A stretch of DNA of 31,285 bases from a virus, in IMG/VR virus record IMGVR_UViG_3300036823_000083, positions 1 to 31,285 of that record. One strand, written 5' to 3'. Both the position numbers and the translations under genes were made by a program. Below the pieces are notes generated by a model that was given only the letters and a program-made list of their open reading frames with translations, was not told the origin of the DNA and made no database searches. Of this stretch, positions 1,285 to 21,300 are shown one piece after another (the stretch's first letter is position 1; each line of letters opens with the position of its first letter).

Positions 1285-1408
1285 GAGGGGTTTTCCTCCG
1301 TTGGGTTGATGATCGGGGGGACTGGTTGGCGGCCCGCCGGGCGAGTCCGCAGCCCTGCATTCGTCGGGCGTGCAGGATCGTGGAGGCGTGCCCGTGCGGA
1401 CCGCCGGT

Positions 1409-1699: not shown

Positions 1700-1868
1700 C
1701 CGCGCCACCACCGTACGAGTCGGCGATGAACCGGAACCACTGGTGCGAGTTGGGTTCGAACCACCAAAACCAGGCGCACGCCGGGCACCGGAACAGCTCC
1801 CCCGCCGGACGCGATCCGGGCAGGGCGCATAGGTGCCCAGCCGGCCGCGGGTACTCGAGGTCAGTCAC
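1692..1868 (-). CDS. Small zinc-ribbon-like protein, 58 aa
   Basis: A GTG at 1868 overlaps the upstream stop (GTGACTGA) and opens a 58-residue frame. It reads HLCALPGSRPAGELFRCPAC followed by a tryptophan-rich AWFWWFEP and a second Trp cluster, ending in a glycine run. His12/Cys14 and Cys28/Cys31 are plausible zinc ligands. Such tiny Cys-His proteins are common in actinophage non-structural regions and have no settled role. The chain of overlaps on both sides supports translation. Confidence 0.6.
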   Translation of the reverse strand: MTDLEYPRPAGHLCALPGSRPAGELFRCPACAWFWWFEPNSHQWFRFIADSYGGGAGG

Positions 1869-2157
1869 GGGAGCCCAGCCCGGGTTGGGCGAGGCCGATG
1901 CTGTCGCCGAAGTGGCCGACGAGGTCGACGAACGTGATGGGGACGGCGTGTTCGGCGGTCGCGTCGTGCTGAGTCAGATAGGTGAAAGTGCAACGGGTGA
2001 TGTGCCTGGCGGGGTCGTAGTCGGCGGTCGCGACGACCAAAAGCTCGTCGAAGAGGTTGGGGCCGACGATGCGACAGGCCAGGGCGGACAGGTCGCCGGG
2101 GTAGGTGCCGTGTACGGCGTCGAGAGGTGGGGTGGTGGTTGCCGGGATGACGGACAT
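1861..2157 (-). CDS. Hypothetical protein, 98 aa
   Basis: It starts at an ATG 4 bases after the stop of the HTH gene, with GAGG inside the end of that gene serving as ribosome site. The product MSVIPATTTPPLDAVHG... has no signal peptide, no Cys cluster and a mixed alpha/beta character. I recognise no family. It is probably co-transcribed with the HTH gene and the two Cys-rich genes downstream. Confidence 0.6.
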   Translation of the reverse strand: MSVIPATTTPPLDAVHGTYPGDLSALACRIVGPNLFDELLVVATADYDPARHITRCTFTYLTQHDATAEHAVPITFVDLVGHFGDSIGLAQPGLGSRD

Positions 2158-2161
2158 TGGC

Positions 2162-2398
2162 TTAGTCCTCGAGGGGTTCGATGGGTTCGGGTAGGAGATC
2201 CAATTTGGCCCGGTCGTACAGGGTTCGACCGCCGAATCGGGCGGCGGCGGGGCGGGCATGGCGTTGGATGCTGCGTTCTGAGCAGCGTAGGTAGATGGCT
2301 GCCTCGGCCAGGTCCAGCCAGCGGCCCGGATCACCGACTGGCGCCGGGTCGGGGCCAGCGCCGGCCGGGTCGGTCGGTGTGCTGCTGGTCTCGGTCAT
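2162..2398 (-). CDS. Excisionase/MerR-like helix-turn-helix protein
   Basis: The 78-residue product has a disordered Pro/Gly start (1-26), then WLDLAEAAIYLRCSERSIQR, a classic HTH_17/excisionase-type helix-turn-helix, followed by a wing-like RFGGRTLYDRAKLDLL. Members of this family bind DNA as excisionases or as small transcription regulators. It lies divergent from the plus operon that begins at 2521, with the operon's promoter between them, so it could control that operon or its own group. With no integrase in view, a role in excision cannot be tested. The ATG at 2398 has only a weak ribosome site. Confidence 0.7.
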   Translation of the reverse strand: MTETSSTPTDPAGAGPDPAPVGDPGRWLDLAEAAIYLRCSERSIQRHARPAAARFGGRTLYDRAKLDLLPEPIEPLED

Positions 2399-2449
2399 GA
2401 TGGTGACGGTAGTCCGGCGTGGCGGGCCCTGTCTACCCACGGTCGTCTG

Positions 2450-2478
2450 TTGACGCCTCCTGACCGTACCGCTAATGT
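2450..2478 (+). promoter_or_regulatory. Sigma-70-type promoter for the plus-strand operon
   Basis: TTGACG (2450-2455) and TAATGT (2473-2478) are separated by exactly 17 bases. This matches the primary-sigma consensus well in GC-rich surroundings. The predicted leader is about 36 bases and ends in a strong ribosome site (GGAGGAAATC) before the GTG at 2521. Confidence 0.65.
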
Positions 2479-2520
2479 AATTCCTGGTAGTCAGCATCCC
2501 GGACACCTTCGGAGGAAATC

Positions 2521-3519
2521 GTGACCAGCACCGATCGGACACCCGCTAGCCGCACCATGCGGATCGTCGCCGCCGCGCTTCGCAAGATGAGCACCCATTT
2601 CGCCGACGACGATGAGGTCCTCGTCAGCGCCGACCTGGACGGCAACGTCCGCTTCCAGTTGTTCTGCGGCACCGAGGCGGCGGGTCGCCGCATCGCCGCC
2701 GCGCTGGGCCTCGAGGGTCAGACGATGTCGGCGACGGCCAAAGACATCCACTACACGTGGTCAGGGCACGCGTCGGGGGTGACGCTTGTCCTGCTGGTCC
2801 CCACCGAGGTGTGGGCCGCCGACCACATCGACGATTTCGCGAACCTGCCCGAGCAGGGCCCGTTCTATTCGAGCAAGCCGGACCCGACGACGGGTGAGAT
2901 CCAGACGGCGGCCCTCCTCAATCGCTACCTGGATGCGGTCGAGGTCACGGCTGACCGGTCCGGTCACGTCGCCGATCTTCTCCGAGGGATCGACGAGGAC
3001 GGCACCTACGTGGACGCGATCATGCGGTCCATCGAACGCGCCGAGGGCGATGCGGTCACGTGCGCGAACTCGAAAGGTGGCACTCAGATCTACGCCTGCT
3101 CCGGTGAGGTTGCCAGCCACGTCAGGGCTGATGGCGGCCAGCGCGTCGCCTTGTGCGCGGCCCACGCCGAGGCCGCGCGCACGGTCCGTCTGATCCTCGA
3201 CCGCGCCAGCGTCCGCCGCCCGCTCGAGGAGCCGACCGAACGCGCGGAGACTACGGCCGCCGCCTACCTGGCGAACCGGTTCGTCGACGTCTACACCGTC
3301 GCGGCCGGGAAGCGGTCGGAGGCTGCTACCTCGCTGATGGGGTCCCTGCGGGCCTACGCCGTCCACGATGACGACTGGCAGGTCAAGTCCGACCTCGTCA
3401 TTAGTCAGTTCGAGACGGCGGCCGAATGCATCGACGCGGTCGCCAAGATCTCGGCGAACATCTCGGCGGCCGCGTGTTTGAACGCCGCCGCCTACGAGGC
3501 CGCCCTCTCCGCCGAATAG
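2521..3519 (+). CDS. Hypothetical cytoplasmic protein, first gene of plus operon
   Basis: A GTG with GGAGG placed 5 bases upstream opens a 332-residue acidic protein. It has no signal peptide or transmembrane helix. The C-terminal third is Ala-rich and helical. Cys residues at about 181, 194 and 212 lie around a CSGEVASHV...ALCAAHAEAA segment, which may form a small zinc site. I do not recognise a domain. As first gene after the promoter it is probably the most transcribed of the operon, because a 13-bp hairpin follows it. Confidence 0.75.
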   Translation: MTSTDRTPASRTMRIVAAALRKMSTHFADDDEVLVSADLDGNVRFQLFCGTEAAGRRIAAALGLEGQTMSATAKDIHYTWSGHASGVTLVLLVPTEVWAADHIDDFANLPEQGPFYSSKPDPTTGEIQTAALLNRYLDAVEVTADRSGHVADLLRGIDEDGTYVDAIMRSIERAEGDAVTCANSKGGTQIYACSGEVASHVRADGGQRVALCAAHAEAARTVRLILDRASVRRPLEEPTERAETTAAAYLANRFVDVYTVAAGKRSEAATSLMGSLRAYAVHDDDWQVKSDLVISQFETAAECIDAVAKISANISAAACLNAAAYEAALSAE

Positions 3520-3531
3520 GCGCCCCCGAAC

Positions 3532-3578
3532 CCGGTCCGGTGCCCGCCGACGCTTACCTCAAGCAGGCACCGGACCGG
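3532..3578 (+). terminator. Perfect 13-bp inverted repeat, possible attenuator
   Basis: Bases 3532-3544 and 3566-3578 (CCGGTCCGGTGCC and its complement) form a 13-bp stem with a 21-base loop. It lies just after the first gene of the operon and before the membrane-protein genes. There is no T run. Partial termination, or an mRNA-stabilising stem, would set the ratio of first to later genes (inference). Confidence 0.5.
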
Positions 3579-3619
3579 CCTATACCAGCCGCCACCGACA
3601 GCCACCCCGGGGAGCACCC

Positions 3620-4003
3620 ATGCCCAGGTTCTATGACCAGGACGCCGACGCGACCGCCCCACGCCCGACCTGGCAAACACTCGGCCATGACCGGCAGCAC
3701 GCCGAAACCGAGATCCTGCCCGCCTACCAGGCCAGTGGGCCCAACCACCGGCCGCGGCTTGCGCAGCCTTCGCCGTTCCCTGCCGGCCACGGCCAGCACG
3801 CCAACCCCGTGATCGCCCGCAACCCAGGCCTGCAACGCGTCGCGTTCTGGTCAGTGTTCTGGCCCGTCCTGGCCGCGATCCTCGCTGCCATCATCATCAC
3901 CGTCACCGTCGGCGCCCTGCTGACCGGGCTGATCCTGCACAACCTCTTCACCAATAACGACCCGGCCAACGCCCTCGGCCACTCGATCACCAACCTCGTG
4001 TAG
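3620..4003 (+). CDS. Membrane protein with one C-terminal helix
   Basis: 127 residues starting at an ATG with a GGGGAG ribosome site. The first 75 residues are polar, rich in Pro, His and Gln. They precede a long hydrophobic segment (about 75-110, WSVFWPVLAAILAAIIITVT...) and a short polar tail. It is predicted to be a single-pass inner-membrane protein with a cytoplasmic N-terminal region. A small 8-bp hairpin (3998-4016) spans its stop codon. No family recognised; its place next to the Ltp-repeat and GDPD-like genes suggests an envelope role. Confidence 0.65.
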   Translation: MPRFYDQDADATAPRPTWQTLGHDRQHAETEILPAYQASGPNHRPRLAQPSPFPAGHGQHANPVIARNPGLQRVAFWSVFWPVLAAILAAIIITVTVGALLTGLILHNLFTNNDPANALGHSITNLV

Positions 4004-4041
4004 CGATCCGCTACACGCACGCCCCCCCAGAAAGGCACCCG

Positions 4042-4683
4042 ATGAGCACCGACGACCGCGACGACCCCACCGATCCGCTGTACCGCCAGCACTGGCCCAT
4101 GGTCCCCGACCGCGACCCCAACCGGGAGTACGGCGACCACACCCCGCGTCGGCGCCTGCCGATCCCTGACCCCAGCGTTCTGACGGCGGGGCGCCGCATC
4201 AACCGCCGCCACCCGCTACGGGCCATGATCGGCGTGGCCATGCTTCTCTTCGTCGTCATCTGCATTGTCACCGCCCTCGGCGGCCAGCACGCCGACAACA
4301 ACGCCGGGCAGGCCGGGGCGGTCGCATCGACCGCGACGGCCGCCGCCAAGCACGCCACCTCGACCGCAACGAAAGCCACGGCCGGCCAACGGCAAGCGAT
4401 CCGGGCCAGCCGTGAATATCTGACCTCCATGGGGTTCTCGCGGGCTGGTCTGATCACGCAGCTGTCCTCGAGCGCTGGGTCCGGGTTCAGCCACGCCGAT
4501 GCCGTTTACGCCGTCGACCACATCAAGGTCAACTGGGATGCTCAGGCCGTCCGGTCCGCCCGCGAGTACCTGGCCGCACAGAGTTTCTCCCGCACCGGCC
4601 TGATCGCGCAGCTGCATTCGACGGCGGGGTCCGGGTACACGCTGGCCCAGGCCACCTACGCGGTTAAGACGGTCGGGCTATGA
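4042..4683 (+). CDS. Membrane-anchored protein with two Ltp repeats (putative superinfection exclusion)
   Basis: 213 residues: polar N terminus (1-58), one transmembrane helix (about 61-80), an Ala/Thr-rich linker (82-115), then two tandem repeats (119-165 and 168-213). Each repeat has the pattern A.R.AREYL....FSR.GLI.QL.S..GSG.....A.YAV. This is the Lipoprotein_Ltp (PF07553) repeat. The phage TP-J34 Ltp protein is known to block DNA injection by other phages at the cell surface. Here the anchor is a helix instead of a lipobox. The gene overlaps the GDPD-like gene by 4 bases (ATGA). I infer a superinfection-exclusion role; other surface-exposed roles of the repeat are possible. Confidence 0.8.
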   Translation: MSTDDRDDPTDPLYRQHWPMVPDRDPNREYGDHTPRRRLPIPDPSVLTAGRRINRRHPLRAMIGVAMLLFVVICIVTALGGQHADNNAGQAGAVASTATAAAKHATSTATKATAGQRQAIRASREYLTSMGFSRAGLITQLSSSAGSGFSHADAVYAVDHIKVNWDAQAVRSAREYLAAQSFSRTGLIAQLHSTAGSGYTLAQATYAVKTVGL

Positions 4684-5522
4684 GCGCCCACCGTGCCCCC
4701 GGGCATGCACGGAAGGGCCCGCGCCGGTGGGACGCTCCCTCTGCGGCGCTGCCAGTCGTCCCCCGCTGGCAGGCCATTATCTTCGCCGGCGCCCTGGTCG
4801 TCGCGGTGGTGGTCGGGGTGAACGCGGCCACGTCGGCGCACGCCGACACCCCCGTGACGTGTATTGCCCACAGGGGCGGCCCGACTGGGTCTCAGGCCGA
4901 GGAAACCATGCCCGTGTACACGTCGGCTGCGGCCGACGGGCTGACCGTCCTGGACGGTGATGTGCGGTGGTCGTCGACCGGGTACCCGTACATGCTGCAC
5001 AACGCCGACATGGGCCTGTTCGGGCACGCCTCGGTTGACCTGGCCGACATCTCCGGGACGACGGCCAGCAGCTACCGGGCGACCGACGGCTCGCAGATCG
5101 CGTCGCTGTACCAGGTGTCGCAGCTACTCCAGCTGAACCCGGGCGTGGGCCTCGAGGTCGAACTGAAAACCACGCTCACCGAGGCGCAATGGGCGATGCT
5201 CGCCACCCGGCTGGACCCGATCAGGGGCATGACCACCGTGACCAGTTTCAGCCTGGCCACGGTCCGGGCCGCACAGGACCACGGATATCGGACGGCCTAC
5301 CTGGTATCAGCACCGACCTCGAGCACGGCCGCGCCGGTCGTCGACCAGGACTATCCGACGATCACTCGGGCCGAGGTGTTGAAGCTGGCCGCAGTGGGCG
5401 TGAACGTCGAGGCGTGGACCCCGAACACGGTGTCCGAGTGGAACGCCCTCGCCGACCTCGGTGTGACCGCGATCAACACGGATGATCCGCGGGCCTGCGT
5501 CACATGGGCGGCCGGCCGATGA
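4680..5522 (+). CDS. Membrane-anchored glycerophosphodiester phosphodiesterase-like protein
   Basis: 280 residues with a cytoplasmic start, one hydrophobic anchor or signal (about 31-50) and an extracytoplasmic GDPD-type TIM barrel. Visible motifs are HRGG (64-67), EET (74-76), DGDVRW (92-97), a His-Asn pair (107-108), LEVELK (158-163) and a C-terminal VEAWTPNTVSEWNALADLGV. The family hydrolyses glycerophosphodiesters and, when secreted, can act on teichoic acids or lipids. The usual Glu-x-Asp metal pair is Asp-x-Asp here and the usual His-Asp is His-Asn, so activity needs testing. It is translationally coupled to the Ltp-repeat gene. Changing the host surface polymer could remove a phage receptor (inference). 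Confidence 0.75.
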   Translation: MSAHRAPGHARKGPRRWDAPSAALPVVPRWQAIIFAGALVVAVVVGVNAATSAHADTPVTCIAHRGGPTGSQAEETMPVYTSAAADGLTVLDGDVRWSSTGYPYMLHNADMGLFGHASVDLADISGTTASSYRATDGSQIASLYQVSQLLQLNPGVGLEVELKTTLTEAQWAMLATRLDPIRGMTTVTSFSLATVRAAQDHGYRTAYLVSAPTSSTAAPVVDQDYPTITRAEVLKLAAVGVNVEAWTPNTVSEWNALADLGVTAINTDDPRACVTWAAGR

Positions 5523-5743
5523 GCGAGATCACGATCCCCGGCGTCCCGGAGACGATCACCAGGGCGACCTACGTCGACACGATCGAATCTCTCGGCCTCG
5601 ACCCGAAATGGGTGACTACCTTGCAGTTCCACGCGGATTACATCACGGCAACCGTGATCGCCCAGGACGAGAACGGCAGGCCGTACGACGACGGCCAGGG
5701 CAGCTTGGCCGAGCACCAGATCATGATTCGAGTCGTCGAATGA
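5519..5743 (+). CDS. Hypothetical protein, 74 aa
   Basis: The ATG at 5519 overlaps the GDPD-like gene's stop (ATGA). The product MSEITIPGVPETITRATYVD... is an acidic small alpha/beta protein with a conserved-looking LGLDPKWVTTLQFHADYITATVI core. It resembles small uncharacterised actinophage proteins in size and tone, but I assign no function. It is the first of a run of soluble small proteins that follows the membrane genes. Confidence 0.65.
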   Translation: MSEITIPGVPETITRATYVDTIESLGLDPKWVTTLQFHADYITATVIAQDENGRPYDDGQGSLAEHQIMIRVVE

Positions 5744-5775
5744 GCCCGATGGCGAGCGAGCCGAAGGAGTGGACG

Positions 5776-6075
5776 ATGAGCGAGCAGGACGACACCAGCC
5801 GCGACTTCGGGGCCTGGCAGATCAACCGTGGCAGCCACGAGGGGTACTCGGCCGCCCGCTGGACCGTGTACCGCGCCGCGGTGGTTGCCGAGGTAACTCG
5901 GGTCACGGGGCGCCTGATGGCGGCCCAGGCCGAGCAGCTTGAGGCATGCCCGGAATGCCGGGCCGGGAAGCACGACAACTGCACCGGCTACACGTGGAAC
6001 TGGTCTGCGTACCGGCCCGCCCCGTGCCCCTGCGAGACCGCCAGACACGGGAAAGCAGGCGACACCAATGGCTGA
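5776..6075 (+). CDS. Small Cys-rich protein, putative zinc-binding
   Basis: The ATG at 5776 has a good ribosome site (AAGGAG then 6 bases). An in-frame ATG at 5740 overlaps the previous stop (ATGA) and would add 12 residues. The 99-residue product has a helical middle and a C-terminal Cys cluster, CPECRAGKHDNC followed about 20 residues later by CPCE, enough ligands for one zinc site. Function unknown. Confidence 0.65.
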   Translation: MSEQDDTSRDFGAWQINRGSHEGYSAARWTVYRAAVVAEVTRVTGRLMAAQAEQLEACPECRAGKHDNCTGYTWNWSAYRPAPCPCETARHGKAGDTNG

Positions 6076-6712
6076 TCTACTCGGAACCGCCAGCACGGAC
6101 ACCGGCCTCGGCCGGATGTCGGCCGCCCGCATCACCGCGGCCATGCATCTCTCCATCCGGATGCGGCTGTACTGCCACCGTTGCAACGCCGTCCACGAAT
6201 TCCCGCTGGCCGCCGTCGAGCGGATCGTCTATACGCTCGCCGCCGACGGGGCCGACGGGTGGGCCGAGCCGGAGGCCGTGAGCTCGGAAGAGCCGGCGTG
6301 CCTGCGTGAGGCCCTGGTGTGGTCGCTCGAGGAAGGTCTCTACCTCGAGCACGCCGACCAGGGCGCGGGGCAGAGGGCCGCTGGTGAGGTCACCACGCCG
6401 CGGATGCCCCTCGACCAGGGCGACCTCCATAAGTCGACCAGCGGCGACGAGGCGGCCTGGTGTCTCTGCGCGATCGGCGTCGACCACGCCGAGGGCCGGC
6501 CGTCCGAGGTCGCGGGTGCGCCGCTAGCGGTTCCCGCAGGCAAGCCGGTCGCGGCCCTGTTCGGGGAACGGGTCGCGGACTGCGTGAACTGCGGGCGGCC
6601 GATCGTGCTCACGATCGCGCTTGAGGCCAGGCCGAGCCGATCGGACGACTATCAATGGCGTCACGCCGCCACCGACGCGCTGGCCTGCGTTGAGGGGACG
6701 GTGAGGGCGTGA
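6068..6712 (+). CDS. Double zinc-ribbon protein
   Basis: 214 residues. The ATG overlaps the previous stop by 8 bases (ATGGCTGA). An N-terminal CHRC motif (about 37-40) sits in a helix-rich region. A C-terminal zinc-ribbon module reads CVNCGRPI, then QWRH, then a Cys about 10 residues on. The same C-terminal module occurs in the next gene product, so the pair probably arose by duplication. Such modules may bind nucleic acid or protein; no role is assigned. Confidence 0.65.
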   Translation: MADLLGTASTDTGLGRMSAARITAAMHLSIRMRLYCHRCNAVHEFPLAAVERIVYTLAADGADGWAEPEAVSSEEPACLREALVWSLEEGLYLEHADQGAGQRAAGEVTTPRMPLDQGDLHKSTSGDEAAWCLCAIGVDHAEGRPSEVAGAPLAVPAGKPVAALFGERVADCVNCGRPIVLTIALEARPSRSDDYQWRHAATDALACVEGTVRA

Positions 6713-7278
6713 GCGTCTGCTACGAACCAGGTTCCGAGGACTGGATCCCGGGCCGCGGTGACTACGGGACCGAATACTCGTTCGACCTGGTCGACCTGGT
6801 CGAACGGATGAACTGCTCGGCCGGGTGCGTGTTCGCGATCTCTGCGAACAGCGGCGGCCTCGGACCGGGCGGGACGTGCTCGATCCTGAACCAGGTCGGC
6901 CTCGGCGAGAACGTCCCGATTCCAGAGCTGGACCCGCGCCCGTCCGGGCCGTTCTGCCGGAAGCAACGAGTACCAGCCGAGCAGGCACTGGCCGGCCAGG
7001 GCGATCTGTTCACGATCACGACGGCCGGCCAGCCGGTCGCCAAGCCGCGGAGGATGCCTGGGGCCGCCTCGGCCGGCCGCTCATCGGCCGAGTGCGAGAA
7101 CTGCGGGCGGCCCATCGGGTGCATGCTCGACAGCCTCCGGCTGGACGGCGACCACCAATGGCGTCACGACGACAACGACAGGCGGGAATGCGCGCCGGTA
7201 CCGGACCGGCACCGGGACCTCGAGCGAGGCGAACGGGCCGAAGCCCGACCCGAACCACCTGACCCGGACGAGAGATAA
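6709..7278 (+). CDS. Cys-rich protein with zinc-ribbon module, paralogue of the preceding gene's C terminus
   Basis: A GTG overlaps the previous stop (GTGA). The 189-residue protein has scattered Cys residues in its first half (MNCSAGCVF and GGTCSIL). A zinc-ribbon module at about 130-160 (CENCGRPI, then HQWRH, then REC) matches the preceding protein's C terminus. A very charged Arg/Glu/Asp tail follows. Coupled translation and shared module suggest the two proteins act together or on the same target. Function unknown. Confidence 0.65.
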   Translation: MSVCYEPGSEDWIPGRGDYGTEYSFDLVDLVERMNCSAGCVFAISANSGGLGPGGTCSILNQVGLGENVPIPELDPRPSGPFCRKQRVPAEQALAGQGDLFTITTAGQPVAKPRRMPGAASAGRSSAECENCGRPIGCMLDSLRLDGDHQWRHDDNDRRECAPVPDRHRDLERGERAEARPEPPDPDER

Positions 7279-7283
7279 GCGAG

Positions 7284-7352
7284 ATGGCCGACGAGAGAGT
7301 CACTCTCGATCTGCGTTGCCATCCCAACGACGGAACGGAACGAACACCATGA
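7284..7352 (+). CDS. Possible 22-aa micro-gene or leader peptide
   Basis: An ATG 6 bases after the previous stop opens a 22-codon frame, ending in a TGA that overlaps the next gene's ATG (ATGA). The product is MADERVTLDLRCHPNDGTER followed by two residues. The only ribosome-site candidate is a GAGATAAGCGAG stretch. The next gene has little ribosome site of its own, so this frame may serve mainly to deliver ribosomes to it. Confidence 0.35.
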   Translation: MADERVTLDLRCHPNDGTERTP

Positions 7353-7681
7353 CCGAGCCCACCAACCCAACCCCACATCCACTCATCGAGTACCGGATCA
7401 CGTTCGGGCCCGAACACGCCGGGCAGAACATCTCCGCAGATCCCGCCGACGCCTGGTTGTCCATGCCGTCCGGGTGGCTGTCCGTCCTGGCCCCCGACGA
7501 ACTCACCGCCAGGGTTGCCGTGATCAATCGGATCGGCCGCCGGTGGTCCGGCATCACTGCGATCCACTGGAGTTTGCGTTTGGTGACCCCGAACTACTGG
7601 ACGTCCACGTTCCCGCTCGGCGAGCTGGCACGGTGGGAGTGCCCAGTCGTGGATTACGTTCTGATCCCCAGGAATGGCTGA
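7349..7681 (+). CDS. Hypothetical protein, 110 aa
   Basis: I chose the ATG at 7349 because it overlaps the 22-codon frame's stop; a TTG at 7316 in frame is a weaker alternative. The product MTEPTNPTPHPLIEYRITFG... has a mixed alpha/beta composition and several Trp residues (LSMPSGWLSVLAP, IGRRWSG, NYWTSTFPLGELARWE). No family recognised. The stop overlaps the next ATG by one base (TGATG). Confidence 0.6.
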   Translation: MTEPTNPTPHPLIEYRITFGPEHAGQNISADPADAWLSMPSGWLSVLAPDELTARVAVINRIGRRWSGITAIHWSLRLVTPNYWTSTFPLGELARWECPVVDYVLIPRNG

Positions 7682-7845
7682 TGGGGTTCTGGCGGGCTCT
7701 GTTCCTCATCGGCTGGGTTCTTCTCCTTGCTGATGGGAACGGGCCCGGCGACGGCCCGTGTGGGCCGAAGAAGCCGCCGGCCAGCCCCTACGGTCCGCCG
7801 TCACGTAAGCCGGGATGGTGGGACGCCGGGAACTATCCGCCGTAG
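7681..7845 (+). CDS. Small membrane peptide, 54 aa, last gene of plus operon
   Basis: 54 residues: one hydrophobic helix (about 3-17, FWRALFLIGWVLLLA), a Gly/Pro/Asp spacer, CGPKKPPASPYGPP, and a Trp-rich end. The GFW...IG..LL...C.PKKP order matches the 67-residue protein at 1081-1284, which is on the other strand. Either a signal peptide or a membrane anchor is possible. A strong terminator follows 18 bases after the stop. Confidence 0.65.
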   Translation: MGFWRALFLIGWVLLLADGNGPGDGPCGPKKPPASPYGPPSRKPGWWDAGNYPP

Positions 7846-7863
7846 GCCCCAGGAACCAAACAC

Positions 7864-7906
7864 CGAACGGCGCGGCCCCGAATCTCACCAGGGGCCGCGC
7901 CGTTCG
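7864..7906 (+). terminator. Perfect 16-bp terminator hairpin
   Basis: Bases 7864-7879 and 7891-7906 are exact complements (16-bp stem) with an 11-base loop. It closes the plus operon. It lacks a long T run, as is common for actinobacterial terminators, and could also stop transcripts arriving from the right. Confidence 0.75.
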
Positions 7907-7969
7907 TCTAGCGGGAGCATCCCGGCACGCCGCAGCCCACAGTCTACCTGGGAGCCGCCATGCGCCCGC

Positions 7970-8156
7970 TCAGGCGGCCGGCGGGAGCGTGTTCCATGTT
8001 TGGGTGCAGTCTCGGCACTGGCGGCCGATGAGCATGGCGATGGCGGCCGTACGCGGACGCGCTGATGGTTCTGATGGAATCAGAATCGCAGCGGGGGCAG
8101 CGTTTCCGGGCGCGTTCGTTGGTGTTGACCGTCGGCTCGCGCCGCGAGTCCTTCAC
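7970..8156 (-). pseudogene. Zinc-ribbon protein apparently split by a +1 frameshift
   Basis: A frame opened by a GTG at 8156 contains RKRCPRCDSDSIRTIS, the first half of a zinc ribbon, then loses all sense. One base shifted, the same DNA reads IGRQCRDCTQTWNTLPPAA and stops at 7970, a fitting second half. Joined near 8040 the two give a normal CxxC...CxxC ribbon of about 60 residues. I read this as a decayed gene, a sequencing error or, less likely, programmed +1 shifting. The remaining parts of the 7907-8207 stretch show nothing I can support. Confidence 0.4.
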
Positions 8157-8207
8157 GCGTTCGCGCGTTGTCCAGGTTGAAACCGTCGGCGTCTTGGATG
8201 CCCCCTT

Positions 8208-8516
8208 TCAGGCGTGCGGGCCGAGGGGGTGGCGGATGGGCCGGTACAACGCCGCATCGATCGCGGGGACAGGCACAACGTCCCCCACCGACATCCCCAG
8301 CACGCCGGCGAGCTGGAATAGCTCTTCAACCCGCCAGCGATACAACCCGTCAAGGCGCTTCGACAGCGACGGGGCGCTGATGTCGAGAGCGCGAGCGACC
8401 GCGAGTTGGGAGAAGCGGCGGCTGGCGATGGCGCCGCGGATACTGGCGTTGAGGGCGGCGACGGCGTCGTCGGTATCGGGTCGAGCGAACAGTTCGAACG
8501 TCGGGTTTCTGCTCAT
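8208..8516 (-). CDS. Cro/CI-type helix-turn-helix regulator (possible immunity repressor)
   Basis: 102 residues with a five-helix HTH core at about 20-80: ALNASIRGAIASRRFSQLAV, ARALDISAPSLSKRLDG and a WRVEELFQLAGVLGMSVGDV scaffold. The XRE-like fold binds palindromic operators as a dimer. The start codon lies 7 bases after a predicted -10 box, so the mRNA is probably leaderless. A palindrome sits between it and a divergent plus gene. It is a good candidate for a lysogeny switch, but it lacks a C-terminal cleavage or oligomerisation domain, so a Cro-like or accessory role is equally possible. Confidence 0.75.
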   Translation of the reverse strand: MSRNPTFELFARPDTDDAVAALNASIRGAIASRRFSQLAVARALDISAPSLSKRLDGLYRWRVEELFQLAGVLGMSVGDVVPVPAIDAALYRPIRHPLGPHA

Positions 8517-8523
8517 GCCGTCG

Positions 8524-8587
8524 ATTCTGCCACGGCAAGATTCTTTCCGTCAACGTCTAGACGGATGCCTCATCTGCGAGCTAAAGT
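8524..8587. promoter_or_regulatory. Divergent leaderless promoters around a palindromic operator
   Basis: Minus side: TTGACG (8553-8548), 18-base spacer, CAGAAT (8529-8524), then 7 bases to the regulator's ATG. Plus side: TAGACG (8558-8563), 18-base spacer, TAAAGT (8582-8587), then 7 bases to the ATG at 8595. A perfect palindrome CGTCTAGACG (8554-8563) lies between the two -35 boxes and overlaps the plus one. A wider dyad TCCGTC-N8-GACGGA (8546-8565) covers both. The symmetry fits a repressor that blocks both promoters. Confidence 0.5.
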
Positions 8588-8594
8588 TTCTTCC

Positions 8595-8849
8595 ATGACA
8601 ACGCAGAGCATCCCGGGACCAGTCGCCACCCTGGCCGCGAATCTCTACCAGCACGCCATGGAACTCGACGAGATGCCGTTCGTCGGCACCATCGCCGAGT
8701 ACGCCGAGACCAACGAGAAGCTGGCCCGCGACGCCGTCCAGCAGCTGCACGACTTCCTCACCCTCTTCGCCGACCAGCTGGACGACGAGTGGAGCCTGAT
8801 GATGAAGAACACCAGCACCTATTCGGCGTGGGAAGCGCATACCAGCTGA
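8595..8849 (+). CDS. Hypothetical small helical protein, 84 aa
   Basis: The ATG lies 7 bases after a predicted -10 box and has no ribosome site, so leaderless expression is expected. The product begins MTTQSIPGPVATLAANLYQH and is an acidic, mostly helical protein with no Cys cluster or membrane segment. Its position across the operator from the HTH regulator is that of an early or switch gene. No family recognised. Confidence 0.6.
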   Translation: MTTQSIPGPVATLAANLYQHAMELDEMPFVGTIAEYAETNEKLARDAVQQLHDFLTLFADQLDDEWSLMMKNTSTYSAWEAHTS

Positions 8850-8851
8850 CC

Positions 8852-8885
8852 CCCCGGCCGACCCCGCCACGGGGACCGGCCGGGG
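8852..8885 (+). terminator. GC-rich hairpin after the 84-aa gene
   Basis: A 9-bp outer stem (8852-8860 with 8877-8885) and a 4-bp inner stem (8862-8865 with 8871-8874) enclose a 5-base loop, with a small internal loop. It begins 3 bases after the stop at 8849. There is no T run. It may reduce transcription into the next gene. Confidence 0.45.
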
Positions 8886-8926
8886 ACACCAGCCCTCTCA
8901 CATCGCGACCAGAAGGAGAACCCGCC

Positions 8927-9148
8927 ATGTCCCGCATCCGCACCACGAGGGCCGTCTCGGCCGAGCAGGATCCTGCCCCCGTAGGGCTGGCCCAGGCACG
9001 GGTAGACGCCGTCGCCATGGGCATGGGCCGCGGCCTGGCCTACCTCGTCATGGGCGTGTTCATCGTCGGCGCGCTCGCCTGCGCCGTATTCGTCGCCCTG
9101 GCGGTCGGCGTCGGAGCCGTCCACATCGTTTACGCGATCGTCGGCTGA
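8927..9148 (+). CDS. Small membrane protein, 73 aa
   Basis: A good AAGGAG ribosome site lies 8 bases before the ATG. A polar N-terminal half is followed by one or two closely spaced hydrophobic segments (about 37-72, LAYLVMGVFIVGALACAVFV, then further Val/Ala/Gly). It could be a hairpin-type two-helix membrane protein. It ends only 24 bases from the convergent minus gene, and the parS-like palindrome fills that gap. Function unknown. Confidence 0.65.
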   Translation: MSRIRTTRAVSAEQDPAPVGLAQARVDAVAMGMGRGLAYLVMGVFIVGALACAVFVALAVGVGAVHIVYAIVG

Positions 9149-9151
9149 CGC

Positions 9152-9167
9152 CGTTTCACGTGAAACG
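9152..9167. promoter_or_regulatory. Perfect parS-type ParB-binding site
   Basis: CGTTTCACGTGAAACG is a 16-bp perfect palindrome. Its core GTTTCACGTGAAAC is identical to the bacterial chromosomal parS consensus used in Streptomyces, Mycobacterium and Bacillus. It is non-coding, sitting in the 24-base gap between convergent genes. No ParA or ParB gene is in the window. As RNA it folds only to a 6-bp stem, so a terminator is a poor explanation. Function as a binding site for host ParB is inferred from sequence identity. Confidence 0.65.
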
Positions 9168-9172
9168 CAATG

Positions 9173-9601
9173 TCAGCTAGTTGAAACGCCGGGGTCGACG
9201 TCGCCCGACGGGGCCGCCGTGGCACTGTCCGGCGGAACTGTCTGCCCGGACGCCGTGTCGCTGATGCCGTCGTCAGTCGGAACCTCCGGGGCGGCCTGGC
9301 CGAGCGCCACGATCCGCGCGATCTGCGCCTGCAGGGCGTCCAGCTGGCCCTGCGTGATGTCGTTGACGTCGGTCGGGATCTGCACGGCCGACAGGGCGTC
9401 GATCGCCGAACCCAGAGCGGTGATCTCGTCCGAAAGATCCTGCGAAAGCGACATGAGTTTCCCAATCTGATCGGTAAGGGCCCGCTGCTGATCCAGGAGG
9501 CGCCCATTCTGAAGGATGATCGTTCGCTGCCCTGCCAGCAGGCCTGCGAGCTGGTCGGCAACAGGCCTCTGGCCTCGCAGCAGGTCCCGCGCACGTCCCA
9601 T
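9173..9601 (-). CDS. Coiled-coil protein, 142 aa
   Basis: I start at the ATG at 9601, 8 bases after the upstream stop; a GTG one codon earlier is possible. Residues 10-100 are rich in Leu, Gln, Asp and Ala with heptad-like spacing (RTIILQNGRLLDQQRALTDQ, LMSLSQDLSDEITALGSAID), typical of a long coiled coil. The C terminus is Pro/Thr/Asp-rich and disordered. It is the last gene of the late minus operon, after the membrane proteins. A structural or lysis-accessory role is possible; no family assigned. Confidence 0.65.
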   Translation of the reverse strand: MGRARDLLRGQRPVADQLAGLLAGQRTIILQNGRLLDQQRALTDQIGKLMSLSQDLSDEITALGSAIDALSAVQIPTDVNDITQGQLDALQAQIARIVALGQAAPEVPTDDGISDTASGQTVPPDSATAAPSGDVDPGVSTS

Positions 9602-9609
9602 CACACCTA

Positions 9610-9972
9610 CTAGTCTGCATCCCCATCGCTGTCGTCCTTCCGGGGCCCTGGGGGCGCCGGAACCTCGGCCGGCCGTTCGTGCTGAACGGTGATCAGCAAC
9701 CACAGCAACCAGGCCAGCACGGCAGCGATGGCGAACCGGCCGACGACCCGCAACCAGGCACCGGCCCCCGATGTCTGCCGGCCGAACGTTCCCGGCCAGA
9801 ACAGGGCCAGCAGGGACAGGTCGTAGGAGACGACGGTGACCGCGAACAAGGCGAACAGGACGCGGCCGGGGACGGTGCGATACCAGTTGGTTCGCAACCC
9901 GTAGATCAACGCCAACCCGTGGGCCGGGATCGCGCCGACGATGAACGCGACGGTCAGTAGGGCGGCGGCCAT
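9610..9972 (-). CDS. Three-helix membrane protein, holin-like
   Basis: 120 residues with about three hydrophobic segments (2-24, 37-58, 78-95), the loop YGLRTNWYRTVPGR between the first two, and a Pro/Asp-rich cytoplasmic tail. This layout occurs in membrane proteins next to actinophage endolysin genes. The cassette also has a single-helix candidate at 10189-10542, so this one may be a second holin, an antiholin or an envelope protein. Topology is my estimate from hydrophobicity. Confidence 0.65.
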   Translation of the reverse strand: MAAALLTVAFIVGAIPAHGLALIYGLRTNWYRTVPGRVLFALFAVTVVSYDLSLLALFWPGTFGRQTSGAGAWLRVVGRFAIAAVLAWLLWLLITVQHERPAEVPAPPGPRKDDSDGDAD

Positions 9973-9979
9973 ATCGGGT

Positions 9980-10192
9980 CTATCTCCGTTTCATCAGCTC
10001 GAGGATCAGCGGCGCGAAGTGGTTCTGTTCGCGTTGCCTGGTGGTCTCGGCGACCTGCGAGCGCATGTCGTCGAGGTCGCGTTGGGCTTTCGCGGCCGCC
10101 GTCCGGGCGGCCGCGAGGGCGGCCTGTGCTTCGTCGTCGTCGCCCCGCGGGTGGGTGGGGGGTGTCCGGTGACGGTGCAGCGGCCATCTCAT
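9980..10192 (-). CDS. Small helical protein, 70 aa
   Basis: The ATG overlaps the upstream stop (ATGA). A basic, His/Pro-rich start is followed by a charged helix (residues about 20-55, AQAALAAARTAAAKAQRDLD) and the ending NHFAPLILELMKRR. Similar short proteins ending in an N.F...I motif accompany lysis genes in many actinophages, without an assigned role. Translational coupling to the preceding membrane protein suggests a shared function. Confidence 0.65.
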   Translation of the reverse strand: MRWPLHRHRTPPTHPRGDDDEAQAALAAARTAAAKAQRDLDDMRSQVAETTRQREQNHFAPLILELMKRR

Positions 10193-10542
10193 CCCGTGGC
10201 GCCCTTCCTGCGGTCGATGTCGGCGTCCGCAGCTAAGGCTTGGGCGTAGACCTCGGCTGCGTTCCGGAAACCTCTCAGTGCGTCGTTTGCGGCCCTTACC
10301 GCCTCGAGGCTTTCGCGCACGGTCTCGTCCTGTTTTTCCCTGGCTGACCGTTCGGCCGCCAACGCCTCACGCCAGATGTCGATTTGCCGATCCTTGTCGG
10401 CCAGTCTCGCATCACGGTCGGCCCGGACCTCGGCGACCGCACGGTTCGGGCGGATGTACCCCAGCATGTTCAGGAGGAAAAAGAGGAGGAGGAGACCCGG
10501 CGCACTGAGCTTGTCGACCAGGTCACCGGTGACCCATTCCAT
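10189..10542 (-). CDS. Single-helix membrane protein with coiled coil, candidate holin
   Basis: 117 residues: MEWVTGDLVDKLSAPG, one strong transmembrane segment (about 15-31, LLLLFFLLNMLGYIR), then a charged coiled coil (35-105). It directly follows the amidase gene in the direction of transcription, the usual holin position, and one-helix holins are common in actinophages. A role in triggering lysis is inferred from place and topology; a spanin-like or scaffold role is an alternative. Confidence 0.65.
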   Translation of the reverse strand: MEWVTGDLVDKLSAPGLLLLFFLLNMLGYIRPNRAVAEVRADRDARLADKDRQIDIWREALAAERSAREKQDETVRESLEAVRAANDALRGFRNAAEVYAQALAADADIDRRKGATG

Positions 10543-10544
10543 AC

Positions 10545-10601
10545 CCCGGTACCGCCGTTCTCTTCAGAATCCTGTGTCGGGGTCGCGCGGGCGGTACCGG
10601 G
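10545..10601 (-). repeat. 12-bp inverted repeat between amidase and holin-like genes
   Basis: CCCGGTACCGCC (10545-10556) and its exact complement (10590-10601) flank 33 bases in the 78-base gap between the amidase stop and the next start. Each arm contains the palindrome GGTACC. It could be an mRNA structure controlling the membrane-protein gene, a weak terminator, or a protein site. Confidence 0.5.
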
Positions 10602-10620
10602 ATCGGGGAGAGAAGCGACT

Positions 10621-11454
10621 CTACTTCTTGAGGGCGGCCAGGGCCTTGGTCGCACCGGCCGCGGCGGCGGCCTCGACTTCGGCGGCGGTGAGGGTGGCGC
10701 CGGTCCCGAGGTGGGCGGCGAGTGTGGCGATCGTAGCGTTGAGGGCCCCGAACTGTGCGGCGGCCTCGGCCCGGGCGACAGCGATCTCGTCGCGGGCGAA
10801 CCGGACGGCGGGTGGCCACTGCAAGATCATGCTCACCGTGTCCTGTGTCTTCCCGATCCGGGCCTTGGCGGAGGTGGTGTATTTGACCTCGTCGGACAGT
10901 TCCATGGGTGCTCCTTCGCTGAGATCTACGGCGGACACTGCTAGGCGAAATTCGGACATGCTGAAATCGGGGTCGGTTTTCCGGCCGACCGGCGAGCATG
11001 TCTCCTTGTGACCGCGGACGTCGGCGACGTCGAGGCCGTAGTGGGCGACCAGGGCCCGGCAGAGACGGTGATAGGCGGTCATCTGGATGGCCGGCCAGTC
11101 GTCCTTGACCCCGGGGACGCCGTCCGCCTCGGCCTCGATACCGATGGCGTAGCTGTTCGTGTACTCGGTCTTGAGACTCACACCAGCGTGGTTGCATTTG
11201 CCAGCGGCGACGACGTAGATCGTGCCGTCCTTGCCGAGGCCGTACTGCGCGAGCGGGCCCGGGAGCCCGGCGCGGCCGTCCCGGACGACGGCCAGGGACG
11301 GCATGTTCCCGCCGGCCCCGCCGTTCGCCGTGTGATGGCAGGTGATCGTTTTGACGCCGAGCATGACGCCGTCACCTCGGGTCTGCCAGCCGTCCACTTC
11401 AACGACTGGGCAGCCCGTGGTGCGGGCGATCTCGGCGAGCGCCGTCAACATCAT
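10621..11454 (-). CDS. Endolysin: N-acetylmuramoyl-L-alanine amidase (Amidase_2)
   Basis: 277 residues. The catalytic domain covers about 15-170. It shows ITCHHTANGG (zinc ligand His40), a conserved GIEAEA (Glu107), RGHKETC (His149) and KTDPDF (Asp161 as third ligand). The enzyme cleaves the bond between muramic acid and the stem peptide at lysis. The remaining 100 residues are Ala-rich and helical, and no known wall-binding domain is visible. The double ATG at 11454 is preceded by AGGAAGG at a good distance. It follows the last tail gene and precedes the membrane proteins, so it heads the lysis cassette. Confidence 0.88.
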   Translation of the reverse strand: MMLTALAEIARTTGCPVVEVDGWQTRGDGVMLGVKTITCHHTANGGAGGNMPSLAVVRDGRAGLPGPLAQYGLGKDGTIYVVAAGKCNHAGVSLKTEYTNSYAIGIEAEADGVPGVKDDWPAIQMTAYHRLCRALVAHYGLDVADVRGHKETCSPVGRKTDPDFSMSEFRLAVSAVDLSEGAPMELSDEVKYTTSAKARIGKTQDTVSMILQWPPAVRFARDEIAVARAEAAAQFGALNATIATLAAHLGTGATLTAAEVEAAAAAGATKALAALKK

Positions 11455-11499
11455 CGGTGGGGCCTTCCTAGCATCGGGAGTTACATTCTCTCCCCGCGT

Positions 11500-13869
11500 C
11501 TACCGCTTCCGGAGACGGGCTGTGGTGAGGCCGGCGAGCTGCCGGGCGATCGTCCGGTTATAGGAGTCCAGTTCGAGGCTGGCCGAGGCAGTGTCGGCGT
11601 TGAATTCGACGGAAATCACCCGGAAGATCGTGATTCCGTCTCTTCCGGCCGGGTTCAGGGCATCCACCCTCGGGGACACGCCGCGGACCCGGATGAGACC
11701 ACCTGGTAGCAGCTCCCAGGGCTGGACCATGCGCCCGCTGTCGTTGTCGAGGATCGGCCTGGCCACCGTCAAGGTCCCAGCGTTTTCCGGGTATTGGTGC
11801 TCTGCGAGGAAGTTGTCCCCGATGTACTGCGCGTTGATCAGCGACCCCATTTCGTCGCTGATGTCGATGTAGGAGGTTCGGGTGAGGCCGGCGTCCGTGA
11901 GCTGGTCGACGGTCTGGGTTCGGACGGTATGGCGGATGCGTCCGGAGGCGTCGCGCCAGCGGACGTCGACGGCGTTGTACAGGTCGGTGGCTGATCCGGG
12001 GGAGTCGAATCCGTCTATGGTGTCCGCTTCGTAGCGGACAGTGGACGGCCAGGGCACGTACTCGAAGCGGTTGAGACCCGTGTTGGGGTTGGTTTCCCAT
12101 GCGGCCCAGTAAAAACCGGGGTCGAAGACGGCGATGTCGTCGAAGATGTCGGAAGCAGTTGTGCCGTCTGGGTAGGCGAGCTGGGTAATGTCGACGCCGG
12201 ATCCGATGAGGACGGCATTGGCGCCGTCGTACCGGTTGAGGACGCGGCCGAGGAGGTCAGCCACGACTTCGACGGGGTCGATGTTGTTGACCCCGTAACC
12301 AGTGAGACTGAAATTGTCTGTCCCGTCAGCGTTTTTGACGGCGCATCGAATGCTCACGTTGTAGAACGCGGCCCAGGCCATCGCGTCGGCGGTGGTGGAG
12401 GAGACGTCACGCTCGGCGCGGAACGACACCATGCTGTCCGTGGTGGGGATCCCAGATCCGAGGTTATCCGCCAGGGTCGCCGACGACGTAACCCAATTCG
12501 CCTTGTGGGAGAAATCGGCGGTGGTGTCTCCGCTCCGGCCGAAGATCGCGACTTGGTAGTTCGATGATGAGCCACCGCAAATATAGTCGGCGCGAATCCG
12601 GGCGATGGTCTGCCCGGCGTAGTAGATGGACCGGTAGATTGCGTCGCCGGCCCAGGACGTGGAGATGGGTGTCCCTTCATCGGCTGAGATGAGGATGCAT
12701 GGGGTTCCCTCGTCGCCCGATGACGCAGTGTTCGGAAGGTCAACGCCGATATCGACTTTCGCCCCGGACGGCGTCGAATACCTTGACCTATGCCATCTTT
12801 CCAATGACTGGTCGACGTAGATAACGGGGAACGTGCGGTCCTTCGCGTGGGCGGACGGCCCGACAGCGGTGATGTTGTACACCTCGCCCTGCTCGGCGAC
12901 CCCACGGCCTGGGTCCTCGAGGCGCCCTTCGAAGAGGGTCCCACCATGGCGGCCATCGTAAATGTAGACGGTCGCATAGTATTCGACGTCGTCGGGGGTG
13001 ACATCCAACGGCCGGTTGAGGGTAAAGCTGGCCGAGGCATATCCGCCCGGGATCGACGACCGCCACGACAACGCCGATAGCTGATCGGTGATGTCGTCGT
13101 CCGATCGGGACGTCTTCACCCGTACTGTGATTGGCAGCCGGCGTGGCACGAATTGGTAGACGCCGACCGCTGTCGTCGCTGCTGTTGGGTCCGGGGTCGA
13201 CCCCGAGTCGGACACACCGAATGCGACGGACAGCAAGCCCAGGCTGCCCAGGGCGCCGGCCTGGTTGCCGGCTGCGATCTTTCCGCCCTGAGTTCCGGGG
13301 CCCAGGCCTCCCAGTGTTGCGGTGAGGGCGACCAGGTAGGGGAATGGGTCGAGGCCCGATGTCCCGGTCATCCCGGACGGGGCGGTGATCGTGGCCCCCG
13401 TGCTGATGTTCTGGTACATCCACGACTGGAAAAGCAACCCGGACGCCCCGAAGTTCACGGCGGGCCCGAGCAACGAGAACGGTGGGGAGCCTACGGCGAG
13501 TAGCGTTTTCCATGACCACACGGGGACACCGGAGAACGGGGTGGATGCGTTATGCCCATTGATCCGGTGCACGGTCACGTAGTTGGTGGCAGCCCCTGTT
13601 CCGGTGAATGCGTAGGAAGCTGCCTCGGAGCCGCCCGCGATTTTGTACCAGACTTTCCCGTAGCCGCCGGATGTCGACCCCACGCCGTCGGAGCGGGAGA
13701 GTTCTGTCCACCCGGCGGGGGCGTTCATGTTCGTGAATGTACCGCCGTCGATGTCCAGGTACTGGACGGCGACCAGGAGATCACCGGACACGGTGCCGGT
13801 GGGTTTCGTGACGGTCGCTGTGCCGCCGGCGACGGCCCCGGTCGCGGTGGCTTGGACGGTTGCGGTCAT
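11500..13869 (-). CDS. Large minor tail protein (baseplate hub/Tal-like) with N-terminal beta domain
   Basis: 789 residues, ATG overlapping the upstream stop (ATGA). Residues 1-230 form an all-beta domain (TVSGDLLVAVQYLDIDGGTF, WTELSR, YGKVWYKIAGG). It resembles add-on domains of actinophage tail-tip proteins. From about 240 (VRVKTSRSDDDITDQLSALS) the protein resembles siphophage hub proteins, with a probable inserted beta domain (about 360-520) before the hub resumes (DPVEVVADLLGRVLNRYDG). As third gene after the tape measure start, it should form the tail tip with the preceding protein and contact the host surface. No peptidase motif seen. Confidence 0.75.
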   Translation of the reverse strand: MTATVQATATGAVAGGTATVTKPTGTVSGDLLVAVQYLDIDGGTFTNMNAPAGWTELSRSDGVGSTSGGYGKVWYKIAGGSEAASYAFTGTGAATNYVTVHRINGHNASTPFSGVPVWSWKTLLAVGSPPFSLLGPAVNFGASGLLFQSWMYQNISTGATITAPSGMTGTSGLDPFPYLVALTATLGGLGPGTQGGKIAAGNQAGALGSLGLLSVAFGVSDSGSTPDPTAATTAVGVYQFVPRRLPITVRVKTSRSDDDITDQLSALSWRSSIPGGYASASFTLNRPLDVTPDDVEYYATVYIYDGRHGGTLFEGRLEDPGRGVAEQGEVYNITAVGPSAHAKDRTFPVIYVDQSLERWHRSRYSTPSGAKVDIGVDLPNTASSGDEGTPCILISADEGTPISTSWAGDAIYRSIYYAGQTIARIRADYICGGSSSNYQVAIFGRSGDTTADFSHKANWVTSSATLADNLGSGIPTTDSMVSFRAERDVSSTTADAMAWAAFYNVSIRCAVKNADGTDNFSLTGYGVNNIDPVEVVADLLGRVLNRYDGANAVLIGSGVDITQLAYPDGTTASDIFDDIAVFDPGFYWAAWETNPNTGLNRFEYVPWPSTVRYEADTIDGFDSPGSATDLYNAVDVRWRDASGRIRHTVRTQTVDQLTDAGLTRTSYIDISDEMGSLINAQYIGDNFLAEHQYPENAGTLTVARPILDNDSGRMVQPWELLPGGLIRVRGVSPRVDALNPAGRDGITIFRVISVEFNADTASASLELDSYNRTIARQLAGLTTARLRKR

Positions 13870-15254
13870 GTCGTCAACCCTGCCACGTAGAGGTACTGGG
13901 GCCAGTAGGAGCAGGTCAGTGTTTGCGACCCGGCATTGGTGTCTTCCGTTGTGTTGTCGGGGGTAACGTCATTGATGAAGACGAGCCGGTTCGTGACCCT
14001 GGGCGACACGACGGGGAAGTCTCCTTCGATCGCGGTGCCCGTGATGTCGGCCAACTGGCCGGAAGAGTTGAGCCCATACACGCTACGGGAGTACCCGTCG
14101 AGGACCATCGTGGTCGGGCCGGTCGTGCCCCAGGTGACCAGAGTGAGGGTGTCGTCCGCGGGGACGAACAAAAAGTAGTCCCACAGCAGGTTCCCGGACC
14201 CGGACGTTCTGAAAGCCTGGACGGACAGGGCGACACCGGCGACCTGAATCGCTGCCCCCGAACCCCCGTCGTAAATGGGGTCGAACCCTTCGGGCATTTG
14301 AATGAGGCCCAGGTCGACCATGTTCGGAGACGTCGTCGACGACGACACAATATCGACGGCCGTGTTCACCACCCCCCGAGCCCCGTGCGTGAGCTGCATT
14401 TCGAATTTGTCCCCGGCGACCGTGCTGTTGACGCGGGCAAACACCCGGTAGGTGCCGCGCACGTCGATGCTGGCCGTACCCGGAAACAGAGTCGTCGACA
14501 ACCGAGTGATCATCGTGTTGGACCCGAAAGTGGTGGTGGAAAAGTTGTTCGACGACCCCGAGTATCGGGAGTTGTTCGCGGTCGTCGAGGTGTTCGTGCC
14601 CTGCGTCATCGCCTCGGCCTGTAAAACCAGGGGCGCTTGCGATGGTGTCCCGCGCCGGCGTAGCCCGATCGCGGATTGTCGGCCGACCGTTGTCGACCCG
14701 GTCAATTTGATCAGCAGGGGGGATTCGACATCGCCGCGTATGCCGGTGAATTCGCAGAACTTCCCGTTCGATCCGGCCGCTGGGTCGTTGTTGATCGTCG
14801 CCGGGGACAGGTCGATGCGGGAACCGATCGCGAACGGATCGGCCGACAGTGCGATCGTGAAATCGAAACTGTTCAGTCCGTGGTCGACGATTTGGGCGTA
14901 GTCGCTGGCCCGCAGCGTCCGGAAGTACACGGCCGGCAGGGACGCTTCCGGTTGCCAGCGGAGCACGTTGCGTGGCTTGTCCAACTCCTGGTTGAGGAGC
15001 TGGAGTTCGGCGGCGGCCGTCGCCGGGTCGACCGTGCGCAGCTGCAAATGCAGGGTGACTACCCGGTTGCTGTAGGCCGTCTGGGACACGAATTCGCCGT
15101 CTCGCAGCAGGGTGTCCACGATGACCCGCCGCATCGGCGGTGGGGATGCATCCGTGCCGGCCAGCAGCACCCGCCATGGGTGCGCCGACAATGCCAGGTT
15201 GACCGTGGCGGTGTCGGACACCGAGGCCACGAACGCGATCTTTTCTGAGCCCAT
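13866..15254 (-). CDS. Distal tail (Dit-like) minor tail protein
   Basis: 462 residues, starting 4 bases after the tape measure stop. The N-terminal part (1-165) contains the features of the siphophage distal-tail fold: RRVIVDTLLRDGEFVSQTAY, a long strand of TLHLQLR and FDFTIALSADPFAIG. A beta-rich insertion (about 210-380, starting LQAEAMTQG) looks like a carbohydrate-binding jelly roll, as in evolved Dit proteins. The C terminus returns to the tail fold and ends in PQYLYVAGLTT. It should form the ring joining tube and tip, possibly binding cell-wall sugars (inference). Confidence 0.75.
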   Translation of the reverse strand: MGSEKIAFVASVSDTATVNLALSAHPWRVLLAGTDASPPPMRRVIVDTLLRDGEFVSQTAYSNRVVTLHLQLRTVDPATAAAELQLLNQELDKPRNVLRWQPEASLPAVYFRTLRASDYAQIVDHGLNSFDFTIALSADPFAIGSRIDLSPATINNDPAAGSNGKFCEFTGIRGDVESPLLIKLTGSTTVGRQSAIGLRRRGTPSQAPLVLQAEAMTQGTNTSTTANNSRYSGSSNNFSTTTFGSNTMITRLSTTLFPGTASIDVRGTYRVFARVNSTVAGDKFEMQLTHGARGVVNTAVDIVSSSTTSPNMVDLGLIQMPEGFDPIYDGGSGAAIQVAGVALSVQAFRTSGSGNLLWDYFLFVPADDTLTLVTWGTTGPTTMVLDGYSRSVYGLNSSGQLADITGTAIEGDFPVVSPRVTNRLVFINDVTPDNTTEDTNAGSQTLTCSYWPQYLYVAGLTT

Positions 15255-15257
15255 GGC

Positions 15258-18254: not shown

Positions 18255-18282
18255 GTCCCGCCCTCAAATCCGCTTGGGTACT

Positions 18283-18707: not shown

Positions 18708-18730
18708 GTCTGTTACCTCCGCTTGTCGGG

Positions 18731-20093: not shown

Positions 20094-20096
20094 GGA

Positions 20097-20486: not shown

Positions 20487-20488
20487 GT

Positions 20489-20830: not shown

Positions 20831-20844
20831 TAGGCAACCTTCCT

Positions 20845-21294: not shown

Positions 21295-21300
21295 GGATGG

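Follow-up and report, generated by a model that had tools for sequence, protein, structure and literature searches.

Why would a phage carry the partition site of a bacterial chromosome in the gap between two of its own gene blocks? parS is among the most conserved bacterial DNA elements, and accounts of it usually deal with chromosomes or with replicons that have a Par module of their own. The question is raised by a 31,285-bp linear IMG/VR virus record of 66.8% GC, analysed here over its whole length (the window), in which direct reading of the sequence reveals the 16-bp perfect palindrome CGTTTCACGTGAAACG at positions 9152–9167 (no strand). Its inner 14 bp, GTTTCACGTGAAAC at 9153–9166, is the chromosomal-type parS core with 0 mismatches and fits the parS consensus GTTNCACGTGNAAC (a 14/16-bp palindrome). 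The C/G pair at 9152/9167 extends this core to the 16-bp perfect palindrome, whereas T/A are the host consensus flanks at these ±1 positions. The palindrome nearly fills a 24-bp gap (9149–9172, no strand) between convergent genes, bordered by a plus-strand open reading frame (ORF) that ends at 9148 and a minus-strand ORF whose stop begins at 9173. An earlier note on this DNA had claimed an exact parS core, a 16-bp palindrome and a convergent-gene gap, all of which are confirmed by the sequence and the ORF borders. The site is the single parS copy in the window, where the only other match within 3 mismatches has 3 mismatches.

The same note held that a chance 14-mer of this kind is improbable, and the numbers agree: a first-order Markov model of the window predicts 7e-5 occurrences of the 14-mer and 1.1e-5 of the 16-mer. 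Palindromy by itself is unremarkable, as the window contains nine perfect palindromes of 14 bp and three of 16 bp. The improbability thus attaches to the match with parS and not to the symmetry. The parS motif was chosen after the fact, a worry that is removed by its enrichment in other viral genomes, described below.

The gap separates two blocks of genes. Small plus-strand genes, mostly without known function, occupy 2.5–9.1 kb, and the last of them (8927–9148, +) encodes 73 amino acids with one membrane span predicted by eye and no family match. The late operon lies on the minus strand, running from approximately 26 kb down to 9.2 kb, from head genes through the endolysin to small ORFs. Its virion genes, tail proteins included, span 11500–25963 and encode a head/fibre protein (25361–25963), a head-tail adaptor (21301–22128), the major tail protein (19614–20093) and the tape measure (15258–18254). 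The lysis end of the block (9610–11454) consists of small membrane or coiled-coil ORFs and the endolysin (10621–11454, Amidase_2), and the last gene (9173–9601) is a 142-amino-acid ORF that is coiled-coil-like by eye and has no family match; all of these features are on the minus strand. The plus block that ends at the parS site includes an Ltp-type lipoprotein gene of the superinfection exclusion type (4042–4683, +; phrog_4980, 2.6e-33; PF07553, 8.6e-30). This gene is followed by one for a glycerophosphodiester phosphodiesterase; the pair spans 4042–5522 and is oriented opposite to the late genes. Positions 26226–30013, upstream of the virion genes, contain methyltransferase, 2OG-Fe(II) oxygenase-like and glycosyltransferase-family matches. 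The host, judged only by GC content and endolysin similarity, is probably actinobacterial.

Searches of the 31-kb window for ParB_N (PF02195), HTH_ParB (PF17762) and ParA-type AAA_31 (PF13614) returned no match, and neither did searches for tyrosine integrase (PF00589) and serine recombinase (PF00239). Genes for replication or for a repressor were likewise not recognised there. The remark in the earlier note that no parA or parB gene is in view is thus borne out for this fragment, and because PF02195, PF17762 and PF13614 are all missing from the window we call the site an orphan. Since the record covers only a 31-kb linear piece, a gene missing from it may still belong to the phage. Within this fragmentary record, parS has neither parAB nor oriC linked to it, and no phage-encoded ParABS module was found next to the site. 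Relatives G001 and G002 are likewise without ParB_N, HTH_ParB, ParA-type ATPase, tyrosine integrase and serine recombinase.

Tail-protein scans of viral and genome contigs found four distant viral relatives of the window, no bacterial genome and no close relative. The four share tail genes with the window, mostly at approximately 45–75% amino-acid identity in the best genes. Conservation of the site at the same junction, a possibility raised earlier, was not seen in these four available relatives, all of them distant, and both genes flanking the junction have no detectable homologues in the sources searched. No parS within two mismatches is present in G001, G044 or G045. G002 contains GTTCCACGTGAAAC at 6103–6116 (L124 1501–1516), at the start codon of a gene adjoining a capsid-like gene. 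This variant encodes the N-terminus MFHVKQ, and the centromere-type site therefore doubles as coding sequence. G005, which shares early genes with G002, has four exact parS sites. A 3-mismatch site in G002, near the region equivalent to the window junction, lies within a gene and was taken as chance.

The wider viral record shows parS to be a recurrent feature. The 16-mer is present in at least 119 stretches of IMG/VR, compared with 0, 3 and 5 stretches in complete scans for three control palindromes of matched composition. Most of the 16-mer records listed are phages, and a large terminase match was found in 27 of the 38 records with the 16-mer. The viral sites also favour non-coding positions: of the 240 with enough flank among the matches listed, 141 (59%) lie between genes as called by our home-made predictions, versus 791 of 4800 random positions (16%) in the same loci. 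Counted by locus, this intergenic bias has an odds ratio of 6.6 (p = 3e-38). By junction, viral parS loci comprise 16 convergent, 15 divergent and 84 tandem arrangements, with no significant excess of convergent junctions by locus and no excess of divergent junctions among the sites. Insulation of the late operon, a candidate role suggested in the earlier note, thus has no special convergent placement of viral parS to draw on.

The variation among viral sites resembles that of chromosomal ones. Bacterial parS sites have been found with the consensus TGTTTCACGTGAAACA (PMC10197239). When viral sites were retrieved by the 14-mer alone, the ±1 flanks were T/A in 190 of 242 (79%); these positions, unused in the search, extend the viral core to the host consensus. 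Thirteen of the 15 one-mismatch sites in 38 whole records are GTTCCACGTGAAAC, and a reversed control pattern had 0 matches in the same 38 records. Across all loci, the T4C change, which creates the half-site GTTCCAC, accounts for 11 of 18 one-mismatch sites. GTTCCAC is one of two half-sites bound by chromosomal ParBs (PMC7022226). As a class, then, the viral sites display the variation that ParB tolerates, namely the GTTCCAC half-site and T/A at ±1. The protein itself is nearly absent: among the matches listed, ParB_N was found in only 4 of 41 16-mer records, and HTH_ParB in 1 of 49 records searched, many IMG/VR records being fragments outside which a parB could sit. Of the phages picked for comparison, Streptomyces phage Keanu (MT723933.1, 82 kb) has one exact parS core at 70523–70536, and nothing within 2 mismatches of parS occurs in phiC31, BFK20, Olihed, Benry or Soondubu; parS carriage is therefore common yet by no means universal. 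Searching by similarity with other GC-rich parS loci yielded short matches only. For the class as a whole, support for the parS reading is good.

Six isolate records among the 16-mer matches pointed to Korravirus (Arthrobacter phages, cluster AK). In 9 of 9 sampled Korravirus genomes (species-level), GTTTCACGTGAAAC lies between DNA polymerase I (pol I) and purZ. In Nubia both outer flanks have changed together, from CG to TA and beyond, with the core and the symmetry intact. A second exact site is present in most Korravirus genomes at the end of one gene and the start of the next; in Bennie (23616–23629; L260 2117–2130) it overlaps the GTG start of gene 30 and the end of gene 29, and in Litotes this second copy has decayed. 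Gene 29 differs strongly among Korravirus phages, and the overlapping second parS stays. Some genomes have GTTCCACGTGAAAC as a third site. The polA–purZ palindrome is like that of the window in being intergenic and without ParB, and its 16-mer is the same in most sampled genomes. It differs in belonging to an unrelated phage, in lying between tandem rather than convergent genes, and in that Korravirus usually has 2–4 sites (core or GTTCC variant) per genome and the window a single one. The 2017 description of these phages treats them as primarily lytic, the singleton Galaxy alone being likely temperate, and mentions neither parS nor a palindrome (PMC5513430).

Two uncultured purZ relatives, G009 and G017 (purZ approximately 46% identity), have parS elsewhere: three exact sites in G009, of which one adjoins a dUTPase gene and two lie at convergent junctions, and an exact site plus a variant in G017. 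We infer that presence kept while position moves fits the site of a spreading protein better than the operator of one gene. At the two convergent junctions of G009 (L288 1283–1296 and 3667–3680), parS forms the tip of long, GC-rich inverted repeats of the form CGGCCCCC-parS-GGGGGCCG, which are apparent terminators with a nested parS.

Larger arrays also exist. The viral contigs G040 (L133/L287), L029 and L074 contain five exact parS sites each, approximately 70–620 bp apart, in iteron-like clusters. In the 96-kb virus record G024 (L286), 12 parS-type sites with GTTTCAC or GTTCCAC half-sites were found at 1286–12435, mostly in gaps directly upstream of successive small genes, and the record has no ParB_N, HTH_ParB or ParA match. 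This array looks like a set of operators or a large centromere, and since its sites precede successive small genes, more than one use of parS may exist.

The host-type flanks, the permitted variant, the intergenic bias and the near absence of viral ParB together indicate that the viral sequence is parS of the host type, at which host ParB probably binds. For the window, judging from the sequence, we lean towards reading the palindrome as an orphan host-type parS that would load host ParB on phage DNA, with positioning of the phage genome, competition for ParB, or both as the outcome. Counting against this reading are the single copy in the window, the three of four relatives that have no parS within two mismatches, the G024 array, which resembles operators more, and the sites located in terminator-like hairpins. 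The proposal in the earlier note that host ParB could load here accordingly survives as a host-type parS and a probable ParB site, and its extension to segregation of a plasmid-like prophage is not supported as a general explanation. Chromosomal ParB, on recognising parS and binding CTP, forms a closed clamp that slides onto neighbouring DNA, and it works with ParA and SMC (PMC12704722; PMC8494293). A phage with parS would be loaded with host ParB in any host with ParABS: the protein would bind the phage site, close as a CTP clamp and slide along phage DNA, and once loaded may bring ParA and SMC to it. The most likely benefit would be that the phage genome is positioned or condensed like an origin region. 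Rising phage copies would also compete with the chromosome for ParB, and host segregation may be disturbed; ParB loading could in addition stabilise a resident phage. Positioning and competition follow from the same binding, and for this reason the data do not separate them. Both kinds of effect have parallels, as plasmid-borne parS lowers Caulobacter viability 100- to 1000-fold (PMC5815017), and the parS mimics of SGI1 bind the ParB of its helper plasmid, SGI1 being stabilised and the plasmid destabilised (PMC10954446). We tentatively entertain, at somewhat short of even confidence, a broader hypothesis of widespread centromere mimicry, in which phages, lytic ones included, carry 1–12 parS sites without ParB, load host ParB (with SMC and ParA), have their genomes positioned or condensed, and starve the chromosome.

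Other explanations of the window site have to be weighed against host ParB loading. That it is the centromere of a plasmid-prophage, an episomal phage segregating via host ParABS through parS, appears unlikely. In its favour, the plus block has an Ltp-type superinfection exclusion gene, of a kind that resident phages usually express; SGI1 is stabilised by the parS it has stolen (PMC10954446); and some mycobacterial prophages are known to be extrachromosomal and to have partition systems (PMC7157519). In the window and in relatives G001 and G002, however, no integrase, serine recombinase or ParA was found, no replication, partition or repressor gene is recognised in the window, no integrated relative was found, and Korravirus, in which the site is best conserved, is described as lytic. 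An operator or roadblock, at which host ParB or a phage DNA-binding protein controls neighbouring transcription, is rather unlikely for a site that has gene ends on both sides and no promoter-like match close by. Repeated intergenic repressor sites occur in other phages, and such a role would suit both the G024 sites directly upstream of successive small genes and the Korravirus site that overlaps a start codon; against it, viral parS shows no excess at divergent junctions, its position shifts between related phages while copies persist, and the pattern of flanks and variants is that of chromosomal ParB sites.

The location between convergent genes also invites a bidirectional terminator, in which the palindrome would be the inner part of a hairpin ending both converging transcripts and its parS identity incidental or secondary. 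A possible nested hairpin at 9143–9178 (no strand) would reach over both stop codons: an 8-bp outer stem takes in the two stops, and the parS arms pair as a 6-bp inner stem. Its stability of −17.8 kcal/mol corresponds to a z of −1.4, which is not significant, it has no U tract, and scans for terminator-like sites (covering 8600–9800) and sigma-70 promoters found nothing. The two G009 sites at the tips of GGCCCCC/GGGGGCC stems at convergent junctions, and the Korravirus flanks that extend the palindrome, speak for a terminator; yet equal hairpins of other sequence are at least 24- to 40-fold rarer (0–5 versus at least 119 stretches), GTTCCACGTGAAAC as the usual variant loses a base pair of the hairpin while keeping ParB half-sites, and the ±2 and ±3 flanks pair in only 35–40% of viral sites. 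We regard this explanation as improbable. Chance occurrence in the window genome seems very improbable indeed given the expectation of 7e-5, the non-coding placement, the class-wide enrichment and the independent parS variant in G002, even though the relatives of the window are mostly without the site and the window itself, with its further perfect 14-mers, clearly forms palindromes freely.

The window site can be placed among known systems by likeness and difference. Its core is identical to that of chromosomal parS (GTTTCACGTGAAAC; TGTTTCACGTGAAACA), the former sequence being given as parS of Mycobacterium smegmatis (PMC7022226), and the permitted variant GTTCCAC recurs in other viral copies and in G002. 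Unlike chromosomal parS, the window site is viral, has no detected ParA or ParB, and is not beside parAB or oriC. The stolen plasmid parS sites of SGI1, which mimic those of IncC plasmids, are the closest precedent, since there too an element with sites only exploits the ParB of another replicon (PMC10954446). The SGI1 sites address the system of a helper plasmid, have their own sequence class and have been shown to bind, whereas the window site would likely address chromosomal ParB, through binding that we infer. Phage-plasmid and mycobacteriophage ParABS modules also place a parS-type site on phage DNA, but encode their own ParA and ParB, none of which was found in the window. The stoperators of cluster A mycobacteriophages are short, asymmetric and numerous intergenic sites bound by the phage repressor. 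They resemble the window site as short sites in phage intergenic gaps and differ in that the window has a single symmetric site; many gap copies with a cognate phage repressor were not found there, the window holding one copy. The literature searched (parS or ParB with phages, prophages and plasmids) yielded no paper describing host-type parS in phages, which does not prove that none exists. The earlier statement that no phage module of this sort is known therefore stands in that literature, though the phenomenon is widespread.

If true, a class of orphan parS sites in phages would tie phage infection to the way hosts segregate their chromosomes. A rule of host dependence would follow, by which such phages would go with hosts that have ParABS. 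Cultured Korravirus of Arthrobacter sp. ATCC 21022 make a genetic test of this idea easy.
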